A stretch of 36,767 nt of DNA, from positions 1-36,767 of the IMG/VR virus record IMGVR_UViG_3300042691_018389; one strand, given 5' to 3'. The DNA comes from a virus. The position numbers were made by a program, and so were the translations under genes. The notes below the pieces were generated by a model, which did no database searches, had not been told where the DNA came from, and worked only from the letters and a program-made list of their open reading frames with translations. Positions 18,325-28,127 of the stretch are shown here, piece by piece. The first letter of the stretch is position 1; each line of letters begins with the position of its first letter.

Positions 18325-18332
18325 TATAAATA
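18325..18332 (+). promoter_or_regulatory. T4-late-type promoter element TATAAATA
   Basis: Exact TATAAATA, the minus-10 element read by the T4 late sigma gp55, about 18 bases before the endonuclease ATG. Only two exact copies were noticed on the plus strand in this window, here and at 20309. The gp45 clamp needed for late transcription is encoded here; gp55 is not in the window. Confidence 0.55.
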
Positions 18333-18349
18333 AGTATACGGAGGTAACA

Positions 18350-18841
18350 ATGTATACAGTTTATAAAATTACCAATAAATTAAATGAAAAATATTACATA
18401 GGGGTACACAAGACAGATAACCCCTATGATAATTATATGGGAAGTGGTAAAGCAATCAAAAACGCTATAGAAAAATATGGTGTTGAAAATTTTACCAAAG
18501 AAATACTTTTGGTTACTCAAACTAAAGAAGAAGCTTATTCGTTAGAAAAAGATCTTACCTCTAATTATTTTGAAGAATCAAATTATAATATGAAACAAGG
18601 CGGTGTAGGTGGATTCACTCCTGAAAATGCACATAAAGGTTTAGTTGCCTTATGTCGCATCGCTGGCAAAGCTTCATACGAACAAAAAAAAGGATATCAT
18701 GCTCAAACAAAAGAACAACTTTCTGAAAATGGTAGAAAAGGTGGTTTAGCACTTAAAGGTAAACCTAAAAGTGACAAACACAAAGAAGCTGTTAAGGCTG
18801 CTTGGGCAAGAAAAAGAATGGGCGTGTCGTATAATGGTTAG
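18350..18841 (+). CDS. GIY-YIG homing endonuclease
   Basis: 163 aa. VYKITNKLNEKYYIGVHKT gives the GIY-YIG core, followed by YMGSGKAIKNAIEKYGVENF and a helix with EEAYSLEKDL that would hold the catalytic Glu, as in the T4 Seg-type enzymes. The C-terminal half (ENGRKGGLALKGKPKSDKHKEAVKAAWARKR) is a NUMOD-like DNA-binding region. GGAGG precedes the ATG. The last 22 bases of the gene lie inside the tRNA at 18820, so its C-terminal residues are specified by tRNA sequence. Confidence 0.88.
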   Translation: MYTVYKITNKLNEKYYIGVHKTDNPYDNYMGSGKAIKNAIEKYGVENFTKEILLVTQTKEEAYSLEKDLTSNYFEESNYNMKQGGVGGFTPENAHKGLVALCRIAGKASYEQKKGYHAQTKEQLSENGRKGGLALKGKPKSDKHKEAVKAAWARKRMGVSYNG

Positions 18842-18895
18842 TACCAGCTCCTCATAAGAGCTCTAGTGTCCGTTCGAATCGGGCCGCGCCTACCA
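18820..18895 (+). tRNA. tRNA-Met(CAT), or Ile2(CAT) if modified; CCA encoded
   Basis: A full cloverleaf folds by hand: acceptor GGGCGTG/CGCGCCT, D stem GTAT/GTAC with GG in the loop, anticodon stem AGCTC/GAGCT with loop CTCATAA (anticodon CAT), 5-base variable loop, T stem GTCCG/CGGGC with loop TTCGAAT, discriminator A and encoded CCA; 76 bases in all. It lacks the three G-C pairs of the initiator anticodon stem, so it is not an initiator. Elongator Met and lysidine-modified Ile2 cannot be told apart here. It overlaps the end of the homing endonuclease gene. Confidence 0.92.
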
Positions 18896-19662: not shown

Positions 19663-19980
19663 TCACTTGCTCATATAGGCATTAGCACCAAAAAATGTAG
19701 CTACAACACCTGCTTGTGCAATATAGAACATCTGTAATAGATTATCTAATGCAGCGAGCCTATCTATTCCGACAAGTGGTGTAAATAAAGCTAAAGTAAA
19801 GATGACCATGCTTCCCATAGCAACCCATGCCATGGAACGAAGCTGGTCTTCTTTTTTGTCTTTATTTTCAGCATCAATCATGGCTTGTGCTTTATTCATT
19901 TCATCATCAGTAACTGTACCATCACCATCAACGTCAAATTGGTTATACTTAGAACCTTTTTCTAAAGTCTTAGTTGCCAT
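19663..19980 (-). CDS. EF-hand membrane protein, 105 aa
   Basis: Residues 16-27 are a perfect 12-residue EF-hand loop (DVDGDGTVTDDE, with D16, D18, D20, G21 and E27), normally a calcium site. A charged helix follows, then two hydrophobic segments (MAWVAMGSMVIFTLALF and IAQAGVVATFFGANAY). The loop would lie on one side of the inner membrane. It is translated after the 20261 gene, with a two-base gap. I recall similar proteins in marine T4-like phages but not a function. A lysis role is a guess. Confidence 0.7.
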   Translation of the reverse strand: MATKTLEKGSKYNQFDVDGDGTVTDDEMNKAQAMIDAENKDKKEDQLRSMAWVAMGSMVIFTLALFTPLVGIDRLAALDNLLQMFYIAQAGVVATFFGANAYMSK

Positions 19981-20261: not shown

Positions 20262-20308
20262 TATATTATCTCCATCAATTAAATTCATCAAATTTTCACA
20301 TTGAAAAT

Positions 20309-20316
20309 TATAAATA
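20309..20316 (+). promoter_or_regulatory. T4-late-type promoter TATAAATA of the curli-like operon
   Basis: Exact TATAAATA, followed by TTACGGAGG and the csgF ATG at 20331. The flanks resemble the element at 18325 (TATAAATAAGTATACGGAGG). If read by the phage late sigma, the whole 20331-25646 operon would be expressed late. The untranslated leader would be only about 10 bases. Confidence 0.6.
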
Positions 20317-20330
20317 TTACGGAGGTATTT

Positions 20331-20768
20331 ATGGTTAGATATGTTTTGGCTGGTTTTTTGATAATATCACCAGCAGCTGCATCCGAGATGGTATTCAAAT
20401 TTAATAATCCTTCATTCTCGGGTGAAGGATGGTCTTCACATGTTCTTACGATAGAGAACCAAGAGTATACTCGTAAGATGAAAATTATAGAGGATCAGAA
20501 AGCTGCTGCTGCTAAAGCTGCAGCAGATGCAAAGAATACTAATCTAGCCAAGTTTTTAAATAACCTTGAGAGCAGAATATACGCTACTATTTCTCAGAAG
20601 ATTGCAGAGCAATTATTTTCTGACCAGGGGTTGACAACAGGTAATTTTGATGTTGCTGGTTCTAATATTTTTTGGGAATCTACAGCAGATGGTATCCATT
20701 TAATTATAACAGATGCTGGTGGAATGACAACTGACATAACAGTTCCTTTGGGAAGTCTTGCAATATGA
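20331..20768 (+). CDS. csgF: CsgF-like curli assembly protein
   Basis: CsgF caps the CsgG pore and couples secretion to fibre nucleation. 145 aa with a signal peptide (MVRYVLAGFLIISPAAAS). The mature N-terminus EMVFKFNNPSFSG matches E. coli CsgF, where M-x-F-x-F-x-N-P-x-F inserts into the CsgG channel. An Ala/Lys-rich helix follows (about residues 50-70), then a beta-rich C-terminal domain ending DITVPLGSLAI, like the TIQVSGL end of E. coli CsgF. Start chosen by GGAGG five bases upstream. Overlaps csgG by four bases. Confidence 0.88.
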   Translation: MVRYVLAGFLIISPAAASEMVFKFNNPSFSGEGWSSHVLTIENQEYTRKMKIIEDQKAAAAKAAADAKNTNLAKFLNNLESRIYATISQKIAEQLFSDQGLTTGNFDVAGSNIFWESTADGIHLIITDAGGMTTDITVPLGSLAI

Positions 20769-21565
20769 AATATATTATTTTAGCACTTACATTGGTTTTG
20801 GCTGGGTGTAATTCGGTTCCTAAAGATTATAGGGATGAATTAAAAACAGAACAACCAACACCAATTTATAAAAAAAGACAAAATGATTTAGTTAATTTAA
20901 TACCACCCGATGGACCGCAAGTACCTGTTGCTGTTTACAAGTTTGGTGATCTAACTGGACAAAGAAAACCTAATGATCGCTTTGCTGATCTCAGCACTGC
21001 AGTATCACAAGGTTCAGAAGTATTCATGATCAAGGCATTGCAAGATGCTGGTGGTGGTACATGGTTTAAAGTTGTTGAGAGAGTTAACTTAGATAATCTA
21101 GTTAAAGAAAGACAACTTATTAAGAGTCAAAGAGAAGTATACGAAGGTAAAGAAGCAAAACCACTACAACCTCTAATCGTTGCAGGTATTATGATTGAAG
21201 GTGGTGTGGTAGGATATGATAGTAATGTTTCATCTGGAGGTGCTGGTGCACGTTTATTAGGAATAGGAGCATCACAACAATACCGTAAAGATGAAGTGAC
21301 CGTTGTATTGAGATTAGTTTCCATTAATACAGGTGAGATTTTATTATCGACAGGAGTATCTAAGACTATTCTTAGCACAGGTACTAATGGAAATTTGTTA
21401 AAGTTTGTAGACCAGAATACTACTACAGTAGAGTTTGAAGCGGGTAATAATATTAACGAACCAACAACATATGCAGTTCGTATTGCTATTGAAGAAGCTG
21501 TAGTACAAATGGTTCGTGAGGGAATTAGAAAAAATTTATGGAAGTATAAACCAGAAGAGAGGTAA
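20765..21565 (+). CDS. csgG: CsgG-like outer-membrane curli secretion pore (lipoprotein)
   Basis: CsgG forms a nonameric lipid-anchored pore that exports curli subunits. 266 aa compared with 277 in E. coli. The lipobox LAGC puts the lipidated Cys at residue 15. VAVYKFGDLTGQRKP, LSTAVSQGSEVFMIKALQDA, IEGGVVGYDSNVSSGGAGAR, LRLVSINTGEILLSTGVSKTIL and NEPTTYAVRIAIEEAV follow the E. coli sequence along its length. At the pore constriction, the E. coli segment Y-P-A-S-N-F reads D-R-F-A-D-L here by eye, so the channel lining differs. Likely a working pore in the host outer membrane. Confidence 0.95.
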   Translation: MKYIILALTLVLAGCNSVPKDYRDELKTEQPTPIYKKRQNDLVNLIPPDGPQVPVAVYKFGDLTGQRKPNDRFADLSTAVSQGSEVFMIKALQDAGGGTWFKVVERVNLDNLVKERQLIKSQREVYEGKEAKPLQPLIVAGIMIEGGVVGYDSNVSSGGAGARLLGIGASQQYRKDEVTVVLRLVSINTGEILLSTGVSKTILSTGTNGNLLKFVDQNTTTVEFEAGNNINEPTTYAVRIAIEEAVVQMVREGIRKNLWKYKPEER

Positions 21566-21567
21566 CA

Positions 21568-22242
21568 ATGAAACTACTAGCAAGATTGACAGCTGCTTTG
21601 TCATTCTTGGTTATGTTTCAATATGCAAATGCTGCAAGTAATTTAATTATTGTTGATCAAATTGGTAACAGTTCTACTATCAATTTTACACAAACCGGTT
21701 TGGGCAACAGCATTGGTGACGCAACTAATCACGCGATTTTAAATGGTAATTCAAACGCCGTCACAATAGATCAAATAGGTAATAATAACACAGCTGCTGT
21801 CTCTGTAGATGGAGACAATAACACATTGTCATTTTCTTTTACAGGTAACTATAATGATTTAAGTTTACTGTGTGTTACTTGTTCTGCAATTACAATGACA
21901 GATACAGTCTATGGTACTGGTAATATTATTAGTCGTAATTTTGATACACAGGCTAGCACATCTACAATTAATATACAATCAGATAATAATACAGTGACTA
22001 TCAATAACGATACTACAGCAATATCAGGTGCACAATCAGCAGTTGACATTTCTGGTGGTAACGGCAACACAGTACAAATTAGACAAACAGGTGCCGCAGG
22101 AACAAATGGTCACGATGCATCGTTGACTATACTTGGTGCAACTAATACAGTTAACATTGATCAAGGTGGTGGAGTTGATAGCAGCGTTACAGCGACTATT
22201 ACTGGCTCTGGTAACACTATGTCTATTAACAGCAACTACTAA
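21568..22242 (+). CDS. curlin-repeat protein (CsgA/CsgB-like), candidate secreted fibre subunit
   Basis: 224 aa, signal peptide MKLLARLTAALSFLVMFQYANA. The mature part is Asn/Thr/Ser/Gly-rich with curlin-type units: IIVDQIGNSSTINFTQTGLGN, VTIDQIGNNNTAAVSVDGDNN, VQIRQTG and VNIDQGG, matching the S-x5-Q-x-G-x-x-N-x-A pattern only in part. It lacks the strict regular repeats of E. coli CsgA and has a Cys pair (CVTC) in the middle. It follows csgG by two bases, so it is the likely cargo. Amyloid formation is inferred. Confidence 0.85.
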   Translation: MKLLARLTAALSFLVMFQYANAASNLIIVDQIGNSSTINFTQTGLGNSIGDATNHAILNGNSNAVTIDQIGNNNTAAVSVDGDNNTLSFSFTGNYNDLSLLCVTCSAITMTDTVYGTGNIISRNFDTQASTSTINIQSDNNTVTINNDTTAISGAQSAVDISGGNGNTVQIRQTGAAGTNGHDASLTILGATNTVNIDQGGGVDSSVTATITGSGNTMSINSNY

Positions 22243-23287
22243 TGCTGCAATAGGTACAGTTACGGAACAGACTGGTCCTACTGAAATAAAGAGAAATAAA
22301 GAAGTAATACCTTCCGAACTTAGCGCTAAAGTAGAGATGGATGATACTGTCACTACTGCTAATGCAAAGGCAGGTATTACTTTTGAAGATCAAACGCAAG
22401 TTCATATCACCGAGCAAAGCAAGCTCGTGATAGATAATTTCGTTTATGATCCAAACAAAGGTGCTGGTAAACTAGCTGTTAAGATTGCCTTGGGTACAGT
22501 AAAGTATACATCAGGACAGATTGCAAAGAATGACCCACAACAAGTTAAAGTTGAGACGCCGTCTGCTACGATTGGTGTTAGAGGTACCGATTTTACGTCA
22601 ACTGTTGATGAGCTTGGTCGTAGTACTATTATTCTTTTACCTTCTTGTCCCACCGGGTTTCAAGATGTTGAAAAAGATTGTATTACAGGGCAAATTGTAG
22701 TAATGACTGATGCAGGTGAGGTATGGTTAACTAAACCCTTTCAGGCAACATCAGTGGATACTAGAGGTAAATTACCAACTAAACCGGTATTATTGGAACT
22801 TAGTGAAAACCAAATTAACAATCTATTGATTGTGACACCACCAAGAGAATTAAAAAAGAAAGAAGAAGACACTACAATTACTAAAAATTTTCTTGATCAA
22901 GATTTTCTTAATGTTGATTTTCTTGCCTATGATGAACTTAATAAAGATTATCTTATTAATAATAGATTAGATATAAATTTTTTAGATAATGATTTTATGA
23001 TTAACGTATTAGATGCTCAAAGTTCACAATTTTTACAAAGTGAATTAGAAGAGTTTAATTCACTTCTTCCTAATTATAACAAATATAATAAAACTGCAGG
23101 CCTTAAGTTCTTCGTAGATGATATGAGTAATGTTGTTTTATATAGAGAAGATGTAAATCATTATGCTGAATTAAATGTTGCAGATACCCATACTGTGTCT
23201 TATAATTTAACTCAGGATGCAATTTCAATTAAACAGATAGTAAATAGCGCAGGTTCAACCTCAATAACAATTAAGCAATCACTATGA
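22175..23287 (+). CDS. FecR-domain exported protein with pentapeptide-like repeats
   Basis: No ATG exists at the 5-prime end of this frame; I choose the TTG at 22175, with AAGGTGG about five bases upstream, giving a good signal peptide (MIAALQRLLLALVTLCLLTATTNA) and 370 aa. The FecR domain is clear: VEMDDTVTTANAKAGITFEDQ, KIALGTVKYTSGQ and VETPSATIGVRGTDF. Residues 238-277 form eight consecutive five-residue units of [DN]-x-L/M-x-x type. The last 25 residues (ISIKQIVNSAGSTSITIKQS) look curlin-like. It begins inside the upstream curlin gene. In bacteria, FecR proteins often accompany CHASE2 cyclases, which follows two genes later here. Confidence 0.8.
   Translation: MIAALQRLLLALVTLCLLTATTNAAIGTVTEQTGPTEIKRNKEVIPSELSAKVEMDDTVTTANAKAGITFEDQTQVHITEQSKLVIDNFVYDPNKGAGKLAVKIALGTVKYTSGQIAKNDPQQVKVETPSATIGVRGTDFTSTVDELGRSTIILLPSCPTGFQDVEKDCITGQIVVMTDAGEVWLTKPFQATSVDTRGKLPTKPVLLELSENQINNLLIVTPPRELKKKEEDTTITKNFLDQDFLNVDFLAYDELNKDYLINNRLDINFLDNDFMINVLDAQSSQFLQSELEEFNSLLPNYNKYNKTAGLKFFVDDMSNVVLYREDVNHYAELNVADTHTVSYNLTQDAISIKQIVNSAGSTSITIKQSL
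22886..23005 (+). repeat. eight tandem pentapeptide-coding units in the FecR protein
   Basis: Fifteen-base units encode NFLDQ, DFLNV, DFLAY, DELNK, DYLIN, NRLDI, NFLDN and DFMIN in order. All eight begin with D or N and have L or M at position 3. The register is exact for 40 residues. It resembles, but does not fully match, the A(D/N)LxX pentapeptide-repeat family that folds as a right-handed beta helix. Confidence 0.75.
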
Positions 23288-23619
23288 AAAAAATACTATT
23301 ATTTCTTCTACTATCTACACCTTGCTATGCTGGAAGCAATATTATAAATCTCACCGGAAACAGTAATGCTATTACAGCTACACAGATTGGCGATCCTACT
23401 TCTACCTTTTTAGCAACTAACCTAAATAACAGTACTGTTTCTATAGATCAAGAAGGTGGTGGAAGTCATAGTTCTAATATAGAACTTTACGGTAATTTTA
23501 ATAACTATAATATATCAGTAACTCAAAATAGTTCCTCAAACCTTTCTTATTCTATACAACAGTATTGCGGTATATCATCTTGTAATCCATATCCATTGAT
23601 AGTGAACCAGACACAATGA
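23284..23619 (+). CDS. second curlin-like exported protein, 111 aa
   Basis: Signal peptide MKKILLFLLLSTPCYA. The mature part has curlin-type segments (LTGNSNAITATQIGD, STVSIDQEGGGSHSSN, YNISVTQNSSSN) and ends with VNQTQ; a Cys pair lies in CGISSC. It is short, like a nucleator (CsgB-like) or minor subunit. It overlaps the FecR gene and the cyclase gene by four bases each. The role as nucleator is inferred from size and position. Confidence 0.75.
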   Translation: MKKILLFLLLSTPCYAGSNIINLTGNSNAITATQIGDPTSTFLATNLNNSTVSIDQEGGGSHSSNIELYGNFNNYNISVTQNSSSNLSYSIQQYCGISSCNPYPLIVNQTQ

Positions 23620-25646
23620 AAAATTTTCTTATCTCTTTTATCGTATTATGTGCTTTAGCAGCACTTAAAGTGTGGAATCCATATCCAGTTCAAATACTGG
23701 AATTGAAGTCTATTGATTACACATTACGAAGTAAAGAGATAACAACAAACGAAGATATTGTAATTGTAGACGTATCAGATAAGACTCTTGAGAAGTTAGG
23801 ACAATGGCCTATTGATCGTAAAGAGTTTGCTGATATGATTGAACGTCTTCGTCATTATCAAGCAGGTGTTATTGTATTTCCAATTCTCTTTTCTGAACCC
23901 GATAGGAGCGGACACGATAATGAATTTGCAAAATCTGTGGGATCAGGCGGTATCGTACTTGCGCAAGTTCCTACCAACCAAACCCAACGACCTGATGCTG
24001 TTAGGAGAGGATTTTCTGCCATTGGTGCTGACCCTCTCCCCTATACTTTTAGCTGGCCTGGTGCTGTTGCTCCGTTAAAGCAATTTGCTGATAATGCTGC
24101 GGGTGTTGGCACTATTGCATCAACACCAGAGATAGATGGTGTTATTCGTCGTATGCCAATGGTAGTCAGAATTGGCGATCAATTATATCCTTCACTGCCA
24201 TTAGAAATTATTAGGACATTAACAGATGACCCATCCTTCCAAATTAAAACTGGAGAAGCAGGTATCGAGGCTGTACGCATTCCACAGTTTAAGACTATTA
24301 ATACTGATGCTAATGCTCGTATCTGGCTTGACCCTTCTAGCCGTTTTAAGCATGTAGATTTTTTAGATGTTAAACAAGAAGACGTTGAAGGTAAATTAGT
24401 AATATTAGGTGTGTCTGCTTCTGGTGTGTCAACCGTAGTTGCAACACCACACGGTGAACAATTTGTTCAAGATCTACAAGCACAAGCATTACTATCTGTG
24501 TTTGCAGGAACAACACCAGAACGTATTGTAATTGCACCTACTGTAGAGCTATTAACGTTTGCACTATTAGGTCTTCTTATTATATTGGTAGTAACAAGAC
24601 TACCAGTACTCTGGACAGTTCCTGTTTATGTAATTTTATTTCCTGCGGTGGCATACACACAAAGCTATCTGTTTACAACTTATAACCAGCTTTGGGATTC
24701 TTCTTATATACTATTAGCTGGTTCACTAATTTACTTTATGATTGTTGCTCAGAAAATGATATCTGAGTATCTACAGAAGCTACAAATCAAGAAACAATTT
24801 GGAACATATTTGTCTCCTGCCATGGTAGAAAAGCTTCAGAAGAATCCAGAACTACTTCAGCTAGGTGGTGAGACAAGAGAGTTGTCTATTATGTTTACCG
24901 ACGTTCGTGGTTTTACTTCTATCTCTGAACATTACGGCACTGACGTTCAGGGTCTCACTAAAATAATGAATCGTTATATGACTGCAATGACTCAATCTAT
25001 TCTTGAGTCTAATGGTACACTTGATAAGTATATTGGTGATGCACAAATGGCGTTTTGGAATGCACCACTAGATGATTCTAATCATGCTAAGCATGCTGTC
25101 GATGCTGCTGTGAAGATGTTAGATAAATTGAAGGAGTTTAATGATGAGATCGCCAAAGAAGGAGTACCGCCGTTCGGTATGGGATTGGGTATCAATACTG
25201 GTAATGTTGTTGTGGGAAACATGGGTAGTGTACAACGTTTTGATTATACTTGCCTTGGGGATAATGTTAATTTGGCCTCAAGACTTGAAGGACAATCAAA
25301 GAACTATGGAGTACAAATCATCCTCGGACCAGAAACAGCTCGTCAGGTAAAATCAACATATAATGTAGTTGAACTTGATTGTATTGCTGTCAAAGGTAAA
25401 AAAGAAGGTGTAAAGATCTTTACTTTGATAGATGATGCAGATTGGGCAAAGAGCCACGAAAAGAATCACATCAGATTCTTATCATTCTACTATGAAGGTG
25501 ATTGGAACAGAGCGAGAACATATGCTAAGGAATGTAAGAAATTATTTAATGGAAAGCTCGAGCACTACTATGATATGATGCTCGAGCGCATTGAAAAGAA
25601 CCCACCTAAAGGTTTTGATGGGGTTTACAGAGCAACTAGTAAGTAA
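23616..25646 (+). CDS. CHASE2-domain class III adenylate cyclase, membrane-bound
   Basis: 676 aa. TM1 near the N-terminus (FLISFIVLCALAALKVW), a periplasmic CHASE2 sensor at about residues 22-300 (DIVIVDVSDKTLEKLGQWP, then GAVAPLKQFADNAAGVGTI), three TM helices at about 305-380, then the cyclase domain. Metal-binding D429 (MFTDVRGFTS) and D475 (YIGDAQMAFW) are present. K471 and D543 (FDYTCLGDNVNLASRLEG) fit adenine recognition, and the N/R transition-state residues are in NLASRLE. The product should be cAMP in the host cytosol. Last gene of the curli-like operon. Confidence 0.93.
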   Translation: MKNFLISFIVLCALAALKVWNPYPVQILELKSIDYTLRSKEITTNEDIVIVDVSDKTLEKLGQWPIDRKEFADMIERLRHYQAGVIVFPILFSEPDRSGHDNEFAKSVGSGGIVLAQVPTNQTQRPDAVRRGFSAIGADPLPYTFSWPGAVAPLKQFADNAAGVGTIASTPEIDGVIRRMPMVVRIGDQLYPSLPLEIIRTLTDDPSFQIKTGEAGIEAVRIPQFKTINTDANARIWLDPSSRFKHVDFLDVKQEDVEGKLVILGVSASGVSTVVATPHGEQFVQDLQAQALLSVFAGTTPERIVIAPTVELLTFALLGLLIILVVTRLPVLWTVPVYVILFPAVAYTQSYLFTTYNQLWDSSYILLAGSLIYFMIVAQKMISEYLQKLQIKKQFGTYLSPAMVEKLQKNPELLQLGGETRELSIMFTDVRGFTSISEHYGTDVQGLTKIMNRYMTAMTQSILESNGTLDKYIGDAQMAFWNAPLDDSNHAKHAVDAAVKMLDKLKEFNDEIAKEGVPPFGMGLGINTGNVVVGNMGSVQRFDYTCLGDNVNLASRLEGQSKNYGVQIILGPETARQVKSTYNVVELDCIAVKGKKEGVKIFTLIDDADWAKSHEKNHIRFLSFYYEGDWNRARTYAKECKKLFNGKLEHYYDMMLERIEKNPPKGFDGVYRATSK

Positions 25647-27175: not shown

Positions 27176-27505
27176 TCATATGCTAAATGACTTTCCACAA
27201 CCACATGACGAAGTTTCATTAGGATTTTTTATAACCAAAGAACTGCTTCCAAGTTTCTGCTCATAATCTATTTCAGTTCCAATCACATATATTAGACTTG
27301 TGTTGTCAATGACAAATTTATGAGATTCGTCAAGATTGACAATTACGTCTAAGGGCTCCGTTTTATCAGAAAAATCATATTTGTAACTGAACCCAGCACA
27401 CCCGCCACCTATTACTTCCAGTCTTATAGTGTCACGCTTTTCAAGGTCACAAGCATTAATTAGATATTGCTTAGCTTTTTCCGTGAGTGTAACAAAATTT
27501 TTCAT
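27176..27505 (-). CDS. A-type Fe-S cluster carrier (IscA/ErpA-like)
   Basis: 109 aa. VTLTEKAKQYLINACD, then RLEVIGGGCAGFSYKYDF and a C-terminal SCGCGKSF, giving the three conserved Cys (C-x-n-C-G-C) of A-type carriers. It would bind and transfer Fe-S clusters. QueE, a radical SAM enzyme in this phage, is one possible client, but this is inference. First gene of the minus-strand cluster; no strong SD seen. Confidence 0.9.
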   Translation of the reverse strand: MKNFVTLTEKAKQYLINACDLEKRDTIRLEVIGGGCAGFSYKYDFSDKTEPLDVIVNLDESHKFVIDNTSLIYVIGTEIDYEQKLGSSSLVIKNPNETSSCGCGKSFSI

Positions 27506-27614: not shown

Positions 27615-28127
27615 ATGACACGTTTAGATATTGCTAAGTATTTTGATATGCCAAATTTTGACAGATATTTCGTTGGTTTTGAACCAATGCTCAAGAGATT
27701 TGAAGAAGCAAACGAAAGTCTCTCAAAAGTAATCCCAAACTATCCACCATACAATATTGCCAAAGTTGACGAGAATAAGTACGTCATCGAAATGGCTGTT
27801 GCTGGTTTTGGTAAGCATCAACTTGATATGACTTTCCAGGATGGTTCATTAATTATTTCTGGTAACTCAGCAATTGGTAGTGAGGATAACGAAGTAGATT
27901 ATCTTCATAAAGGTATTGCTGATCGCGCATTCACTCGTAAGTTCTCACTTGCAGACACTGTGGAAATTAAGAATGCTGAACTTGTAAACGGCATGCTTAA
28001 GATTTGGCTTGAGAACATCATTCCTGATTCAAAGAAGCCTAAGAAGATTGATATTACTGATACTGCCACTGAGAGCAAAGTTGCTGATACAAAGCAACTC
28101 TTAACAGAAGATAAGAAAGCAAAGTAA
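27615..28127 (+). CDS. hsp20: small heat-shock protein, Hsp20 family
   Basis: ATP-independent holdase chaperone. 170 aa; the alpha-crystallin domain is at about residues 45-135: YPPYNIAKVDENKYVIEMAVAGF, then DGSLIISGN, DYLHKGIADRAFTRKFSLAD and AELVNGMLKIWLE (family G-L-x-[IV]). AGGAGGT precedes the ATG. A GTGAAT/ATTCAC hairpin with a 9-base loop lies in the leader at about 27561-27581. Hsp20 genes are a hallmark of marine T4-like phages. Confidence 0.95.
   Translation: MTRLDIAKYFDMPNFDRYFVGFEPMLKRFEEANESLSKVIPNYPPYNIAKVDENKYVIEMAVAGFGKHQLDMTFQDGSLIISGNSAIGSEDNEVDYLHKGIADRAFTRKFSLADTVEIKNAELVNGMLKIWLENIIPDSKKPKKIDITDTATESKVADTKQLLTEDKKAK

Follow-up and report, generated by a model that had tools for sequence, protein, structure and literature searches.

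A predicted membrane-anchored CHASE2 adenylate cyclase at the end of a curli and FecR gene cluster in a marine T4-like phage

The 36,767-base IMG/VR virus record IMGVR_UViG_3300042691_018389 was analysed over its whole length, hereafter called the window. Its replication genes are T4-like and encode a family B DNA polymerase, UvsX, a DnaB-like helicase, a sliding clamp and a clamp loader; among cultured phages, the nearest matches to the polymerase are those of cyanophages, at 49% identity. The record is that of a marine T4-like phage, and it carries an intact-looking gene for a predicted membrane-anchored enzyme that makes cyclic AMP. The gene is the last of a unit ordered csgF-csgG-curlin-FecR-curlin-cyclase (20331-25646), listed here with the octamer that precedes it.

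20309 to 20316, + strand: TATAAATA, a late promoter octamer of the T4 type, 15-22 nt upstream of the probable csgF ATG
20331 to 20768, + strand: csgF (Pfam CsgF, 2e-17); the likely ATG follows GGAGG, and the open reading frame list gives a TTG at 20301
20765 to 21565, + strand: csgG, the outer-membrane curli pore lipoprotein (Pfam CsgG, 3.7e-50)
21568 to 22242, + strand: curlin-repeat subunit, CsgA/B-like (Pfam Curlin_rpt, 1e-6), with a signal peptide and visible repeats
22133 to 23287, + strand: periplasmic FecR-domain protein (Pfam FecR, 6.1e-12), exact start uncertain (TTG or other non-ATG)
23284 to 23619, + strand: second small curlin-like subunit, from its sequence and a weak CsgB similarity (8.5e-4)
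23616 to 25646, + strand: CHASE2-class III cyclase, an ATG-to-stop open reading frame of 676 aa with no internal stops

The TGA of the second curlin gene overlaps the ATG of the cyclase gene (ATGA), which suggests translational coupling.

FecR and adenylate cyclase genes were described in the curli clusters of pelagiphages in 2022, in a study that also reported their affinity to Alphaproteobacteria, their presence across the oceans and their movement between phage families (PMC9599517). The curli genes of pelagimyophages and of phage Melnitz have also been described (PMC7029224, PMC9004378), and the corresponding genes of HTVC008M and Melnitz are already labelled as cyclases in GenBank. The window has the gene order of the published cluster (csgF, csgG, curlin, FecR, second curlin, cyclase), and on sequence grounds its cyclase gene belongs to these known phage clusters. 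To this we add the assignment to class IIIb, evidence for a late promoter, the altered active site of Melnitz and the FecR-adhesin-secretion context of the cellular relatives. The podophage version of the cluster has been reported with an upstream histidine kinase (PMC9599517); no such Pfam match was found in the upstream reading frames scanned in the window (18350-18841 and 19663-19980).

At least 596 relatives of the cyclase were confirmed in viral contigs. Eighty viral loci found through the cyclase carry identical genes in identical order wherever the contig extends far enough; a few have extra genes ahead of the cyclase, and in some FecR and the cyclase lie several kilobases apart. To avoid circularity, a second search was started from csgG instead of the cyclase, and it gave at least 592 confirmed relatives. 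Where these csgG-based loci had at least 6.8 kb downstream, FecR was present in 45/45 and the cyclase in 43/45; the csgG-downstream stretches fetched for L169 and L217 contained no cyclase. With relatives encoded at hundreds of viral loci the gene is common and its setting widespread among marine phages, and the impression of an earlier note on this DNA that a phage-made membrane cyclase is rare has to be given up. The same note's guess that the FecR and curli genes belong with the cyclase fared better: the genes form one conserved, probably late-transcribed unit, and the adjacency of FecR and CHASE2 is a theme in bacteria as well. The cluster also occurs in viral contigs of 337-364 kb (L172, L180, L181 and L185), larger than the T4-sized and podovirus genomes in which it had been described before.

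The sequence TATAAAT has been given as the late promoter of this phage group (PMC9004378). In 30/110 loci the octamer TATAAATA occurs no more than 60 bp from the csgF start, against 0.66 expected, a count inflated by near-copies among the 110 loci; in none of the relatives' loci compared was it found upstream of csgG, curlin 1 or FecR. This distribution fits a single late transcript from csgF. Because of the near-copies, and because the octamer is not enriched in the window as a whole (2 found versus 5.25 expected), we treat it as support and not as proof; its weight lies in its position and in the comparison across relatives. The cluster is probably transcribed late as one unit from csgF. A sigma-70 promoter scan of the cluster did no better than shuffled sequences. 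The other TATAAATA of the window, at 18325, precedes a reading frame for a GIY-YIG/SegE-like endonuclease that overlaps the start of a tRNA-Met gene (18820-18895), the two together spanning 18350-18895. Further along the window lie genes for an Fe-S cluster biosynthesis protein (27176-27505, - strand) and an IbpA-like Hsp20 (27615-28127, + strand).

From N- to C-terminus, the 676-aa protein comprises one transmembrane helix, a periplasmic CHASE2 domain, three transmembrane helices, a cytosolic class III cyclase domain and a C-terminal tail, the arrangement up to the catalytic domain being that of CHASE2 receptor cyclases.

23616 to 23684, + strand: transmembrane helix 1, about residues 1-23, from hydropathy
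23661 to 24578, + strand: CHASE2 sensor match, residues 16-321 (Pfam, 1.2e-38)
24522 to 24764, + strand: transmembrane helices 2-4, within residues 303-383, from hydropathy
24876 to 25427, + strand: class III cyclase domain, residues 421-604 (Pfam Guanylate_cyc, PF00211, 1.2e-21; PDB cyclases to 6.7e-36)
24900 to 24902, + strand: D429, first metal Asp, invariant in 83 sequences
25026 to 25028, + strand: K471, adenine-contacting Lys, invariant in 83 sequences
25038 to 25040, + strand: D475, second metal Asp, invariant in 83 sequences
25248 to 25250, + strand: T545, class IIIb-type Thr and adenine-recognition partner of K471, from alignment (T in 81/83)
25269 to 25271, + strand: N552, transition-state Asn (N in 82/83, Ser in Melnitz)
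25281 to 25283, + strand: R556, transition-state Arg, invariant in 83 sequences
25434 to 25643, + strand: C-terminal tail, residues 607-676, common to cellular homologues and missing in HTVC008M

Both Pfam matches are well above cut-off, and phrog_35576 covers the protein over its full length (1.3e-222). No NCBIfam model was matched by the cyclase, and an Rfam search of the window was likewise negative. The reading of the gene as a membrane cyclase with four transmembrane helices, a periplasmic CHASE2 sensor and a complete active site, made before any database search, agrees with these results.

D429, D475, K471 and the NLASRLE motif (552-558) were all found where the earlier note had seen them, and one of its assignments was corrected. 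D543, which it had taken to specify adenine, is likewise conserved (82/83 of the viral cyclase sequences that make up the conservation set), yet the adenine-specifying position is T545, seven residues before N552, on which the Thr of Pseudomonas aeruginosa CyaB (DYTIIG..VNLASR) and of Spirulina CyaC (DFTAIG..VNIAAR) falls in the alignment. This position, counted back from the transition-state Asn, corresponds to mammalian Asp1018. A Lys/Thr pair in place of Lys/Asp is the mark of class IIIb, and class IIIb enzymes use ATP. With K471 and T545 in the alignment columns of the Lys/Thr pair of CyaB and CyaC, the window cyclase is class IIIb-like and probably ATP-specific. One chain, predicted to be able to homodimerise, holds both metal aspartates, N552 and R556, as in class III cyclases, and catalysis on ATP appears highly likely.

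PMC9599517 refers to FecR as an iron-dependent regulator. The window FecR protein has a signal-peptide-like N-terminal stretch and no visible cytoplasmic anti-sigma part, so its anatomy does not indicate a role in iron regulation. In bacteria, CHASE2 cyclases of Campylobacterota cluster with FecR (PMC9239204), and FecR stands together with a CHASE2 kinase in a biofilm operon of Burkholderia (PMC5192318).

The closest cellular homologues among the matches listed are alphaproteobacterial, full-length and 33-38% identical to the window cyclase, and they have its C-terminal tail; the cellular sample was picked by motif, up to a maximum of 80. In a phylogeny built from 34 viral and 43 cellular sequences, a split with full SH-aLRT support divides viral from cellular, the viral sequences forming a single group; this agrees with the alphaproteobacterial origin that PMC9599517 reports. 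Two matches labelled as Acinetobacter phage cyclases (H7 and H8) were dropped, as their neighbours mfd, hscA and hscB belong to bacterial chromosomes. The genes immediately next to the cellular cyclases encode FecR-domain proteins in 11/38 cases and HlyD adaptors in 12/38, and cadherin, Ig or RTX adhesins are frequent there too. Across 30 alphaproteobacterial genomes, 30/61 CHASE2 genes have a FecR gene no further than 10 kb away, mostly on the same strand, compared with about 1.7% by chance, although the genomes are related and the effective number is smaller.

One locus from a marine single-cell alphaproteobacterial genome (L135:1063-8256) encodes, in this order, an ABC exporter, a fusion of a cNMP-binding domain with HlyD, a CHASE2 cyclase and two small cNMP-binding proteins, and its kin have cNMP-binding matches at similar spacing. 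This gene order links the cAMP product to secretion in a cellular relative, and the operon is possibly a cAMP-gated type I secretion system. Proteins with cNMP-binding domains are present in 28/31 relatives of one marine alphaproteobacterium, organisms that are not shown to be hosts of the phage.

The explanation that we favour, at a probability of about 0.5, is that the gene encodes a working class IIIb-like receptor cyclase within a captured FecR-CHASE2 module whose cAMP signal would report on the export of fibres late in infection. A module of alphaproteobacterial type, consisting of a FecR-domain protein and a CHASE2 cyclase, would have been captured by the phage or assembled on it and joined to its curli (type VIII) export cluster. 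The promoter before csgF would drive the unit late in infection, and the curlin subunits would be exported with CsgG and CsgF. The periplasmic FecR protein and CHASE2 would then sense some feature of the envelope or of curli export, the homodimeric cyclase in the cytosol would respond by converting ATP to cAMP, and cAMP would act on cyclic-nucleotide-binding proteins of the host and so adjust its physiology to fibre production. From gene neighbourhood, FecR is a plausible sensor partner of the cyclase, the odds being evenly balanced. That curli export is the sensed event is a guess, and a somewhat doubtful one. The relay taken whole, by which the phage would gauge the export of its own amyloid fibres as FecR reports curli secretion to the CHASE2 cyclase and host cAMP responds late in infection, is put forward tentatively; equally tentative is the analogy by which its logic would follow that of Alphaproteobacteria with FecR-linked giant adhesins and cNMP-gated type I secretion.

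A search of the window record and 15 related phage records, including the complete genomes of Melnitz and HTVC008M, gave no PF00027 cNMP-binding protein, so any effector of cAMP must be the host's. Dependence on host proteins would equally suit an active cyclase that serves general control of the host, in a catabolite or stress response via host Crp, and that adjoins the curli genes only through a shared late promoter. The gap of several kilobases between FecR and the cyclase in some loci points the same way, as does an ATAAATA-type site of its own before the cyclase in 13/116 loci. Against this stand the near-universal co-occurrence of the cyclase with csgG and FecR and the FecR and secretion company that such cyclases also keep in bacteria, and we regard general host control as unlikely.

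The cyclase genes of relatives are long open frames, and the window cyclase compared with four close relatives gives dN/dS of 0.08-0.16, falling to about 0.06 in the linker and cyclase region; the gene withstands the check for frameshifts in related phages that the earlier note had proposed. That purifying selection is strong, above all in the cyclase region, is hard to reconcile with a passenger inherited with the curli cluster, catalytically idle or a membrane scaffold only, and the catalytic residues are near-invariant outside two cultured phages. These are HTVC008M, with Ser at 545 and no C-terminal tail, and the OM43 phage Melnitz (L082, 9992-12043), with Asp at 545 and Ser at 552. The Melnitz enzyme may be weak or altered, and its loss of the transition-state Asn, which is the point in favour of a passenger, means that cyclase activity may not be essential in every phage. 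For the window gene we consider an idle passenger improbable.

Four viral loci encode, upstream of csgF, a small stand-alone protein of 109-137 aa with similarity to the C-terminal region of the cyclase (about positions 573-685 of the profile, E 1e-9 to 1e-12).

L201:5452-5787
L217:6661-6987
L176:6143-6553
L181:5347-5715

In these loci it had no PHROG match below 0.05, and the window lacks it. It may regulate the cyclase or act as its partner.

A lysis role has been argued for the phage CsgGF pore (PMC9004378), and in an extension of that proposal the curli pore and the cyclase would jointly time lysis, for which the late-promoter octamer before csgF would be well placed. However, the curlin subunits, FecR and the cyclase are kept under selection and a bare lysis pore would need none of them; we hold this to be very improbable. 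A Pycsar-like or counter-Pycsar cyclase making a pyrimidine cyclic nucleotide is scarcely credible, as the PADLOC PycC models that match the cyclase domain (best 2.9e-27) do so only over the generic catalytic domain, the architecture and nearest kin are those of CHASE2 receptor cyclases, and Pycsar membership was rejected in the absence of an adjacent cNMP-binding effector, none (PF00027) being encoded in the window or the 15 related records.

If active, the cyclase would be among the commonest second-messenger enzymes made by phages in the sea, a complete receptor accompanied by its own surface-fibre exporter, and the rewiring of host surface behaviour by phages through cAMP becomes testable. 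The cellular neighbourhoods offer an unstudied partner for the phage FecR and suggest that FecR-CHASE2 systems may generally monitor secreted adhesins.

Among known systems, the type VIII secretion (curli) clusters of Pelagibacter myo- and podophages (PMC9599517; HTVC008M, Melnitz) have the gene set and order of the window. The HTVC008M and Melnitz cyclases are 39.5-41% identical to the window cyclase, and the window phage is only distantly related to them; the window enzyme has the canonical Lys/Thr/Asn/Arg set, unlike Melnitz with Asp 545 and Ser 552, and has the tail that HTVC008M lacks. The class IIIb cyclases CyaB of P. aeruginosa and CyaC of Spirulina have the Lys/Thr catalytic domain in common with it, coupled to other regulatory domains. 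PycC of Pycsar belongs to the same catalytic superfamily but has a different architecture, and the window cyclase is without an effector partner. In Sinorhizobium meliloti, CyaD1, CyaD2 and CyaK are receptor-type cyclases under periplasmic CHASE2 control, shown for CyaD1, which without CHASE2 produces cAMP constitutively, and a FecR-domain protein is encoded nearby as in the window (PMC5498481). These S. meliloti systems differ in being chromosomal, in having a dedicated Crp-family receptor, Clr, next door and in lacking curli genes. The alphaproteobacterial CHASE2 cyclases (loci L085-L164) are homologous to the window cyclase over their full length at 35-38% identity, including the C-terminal tail, and have FecR and a secreted surface polymer nearby, as in the phage cluster. 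Their export is by type I secretion, whereas that of the phage cluster is by curli, and their marine lineages add cNMP-binding proteins, one of them fused to an HlyD adaptor.
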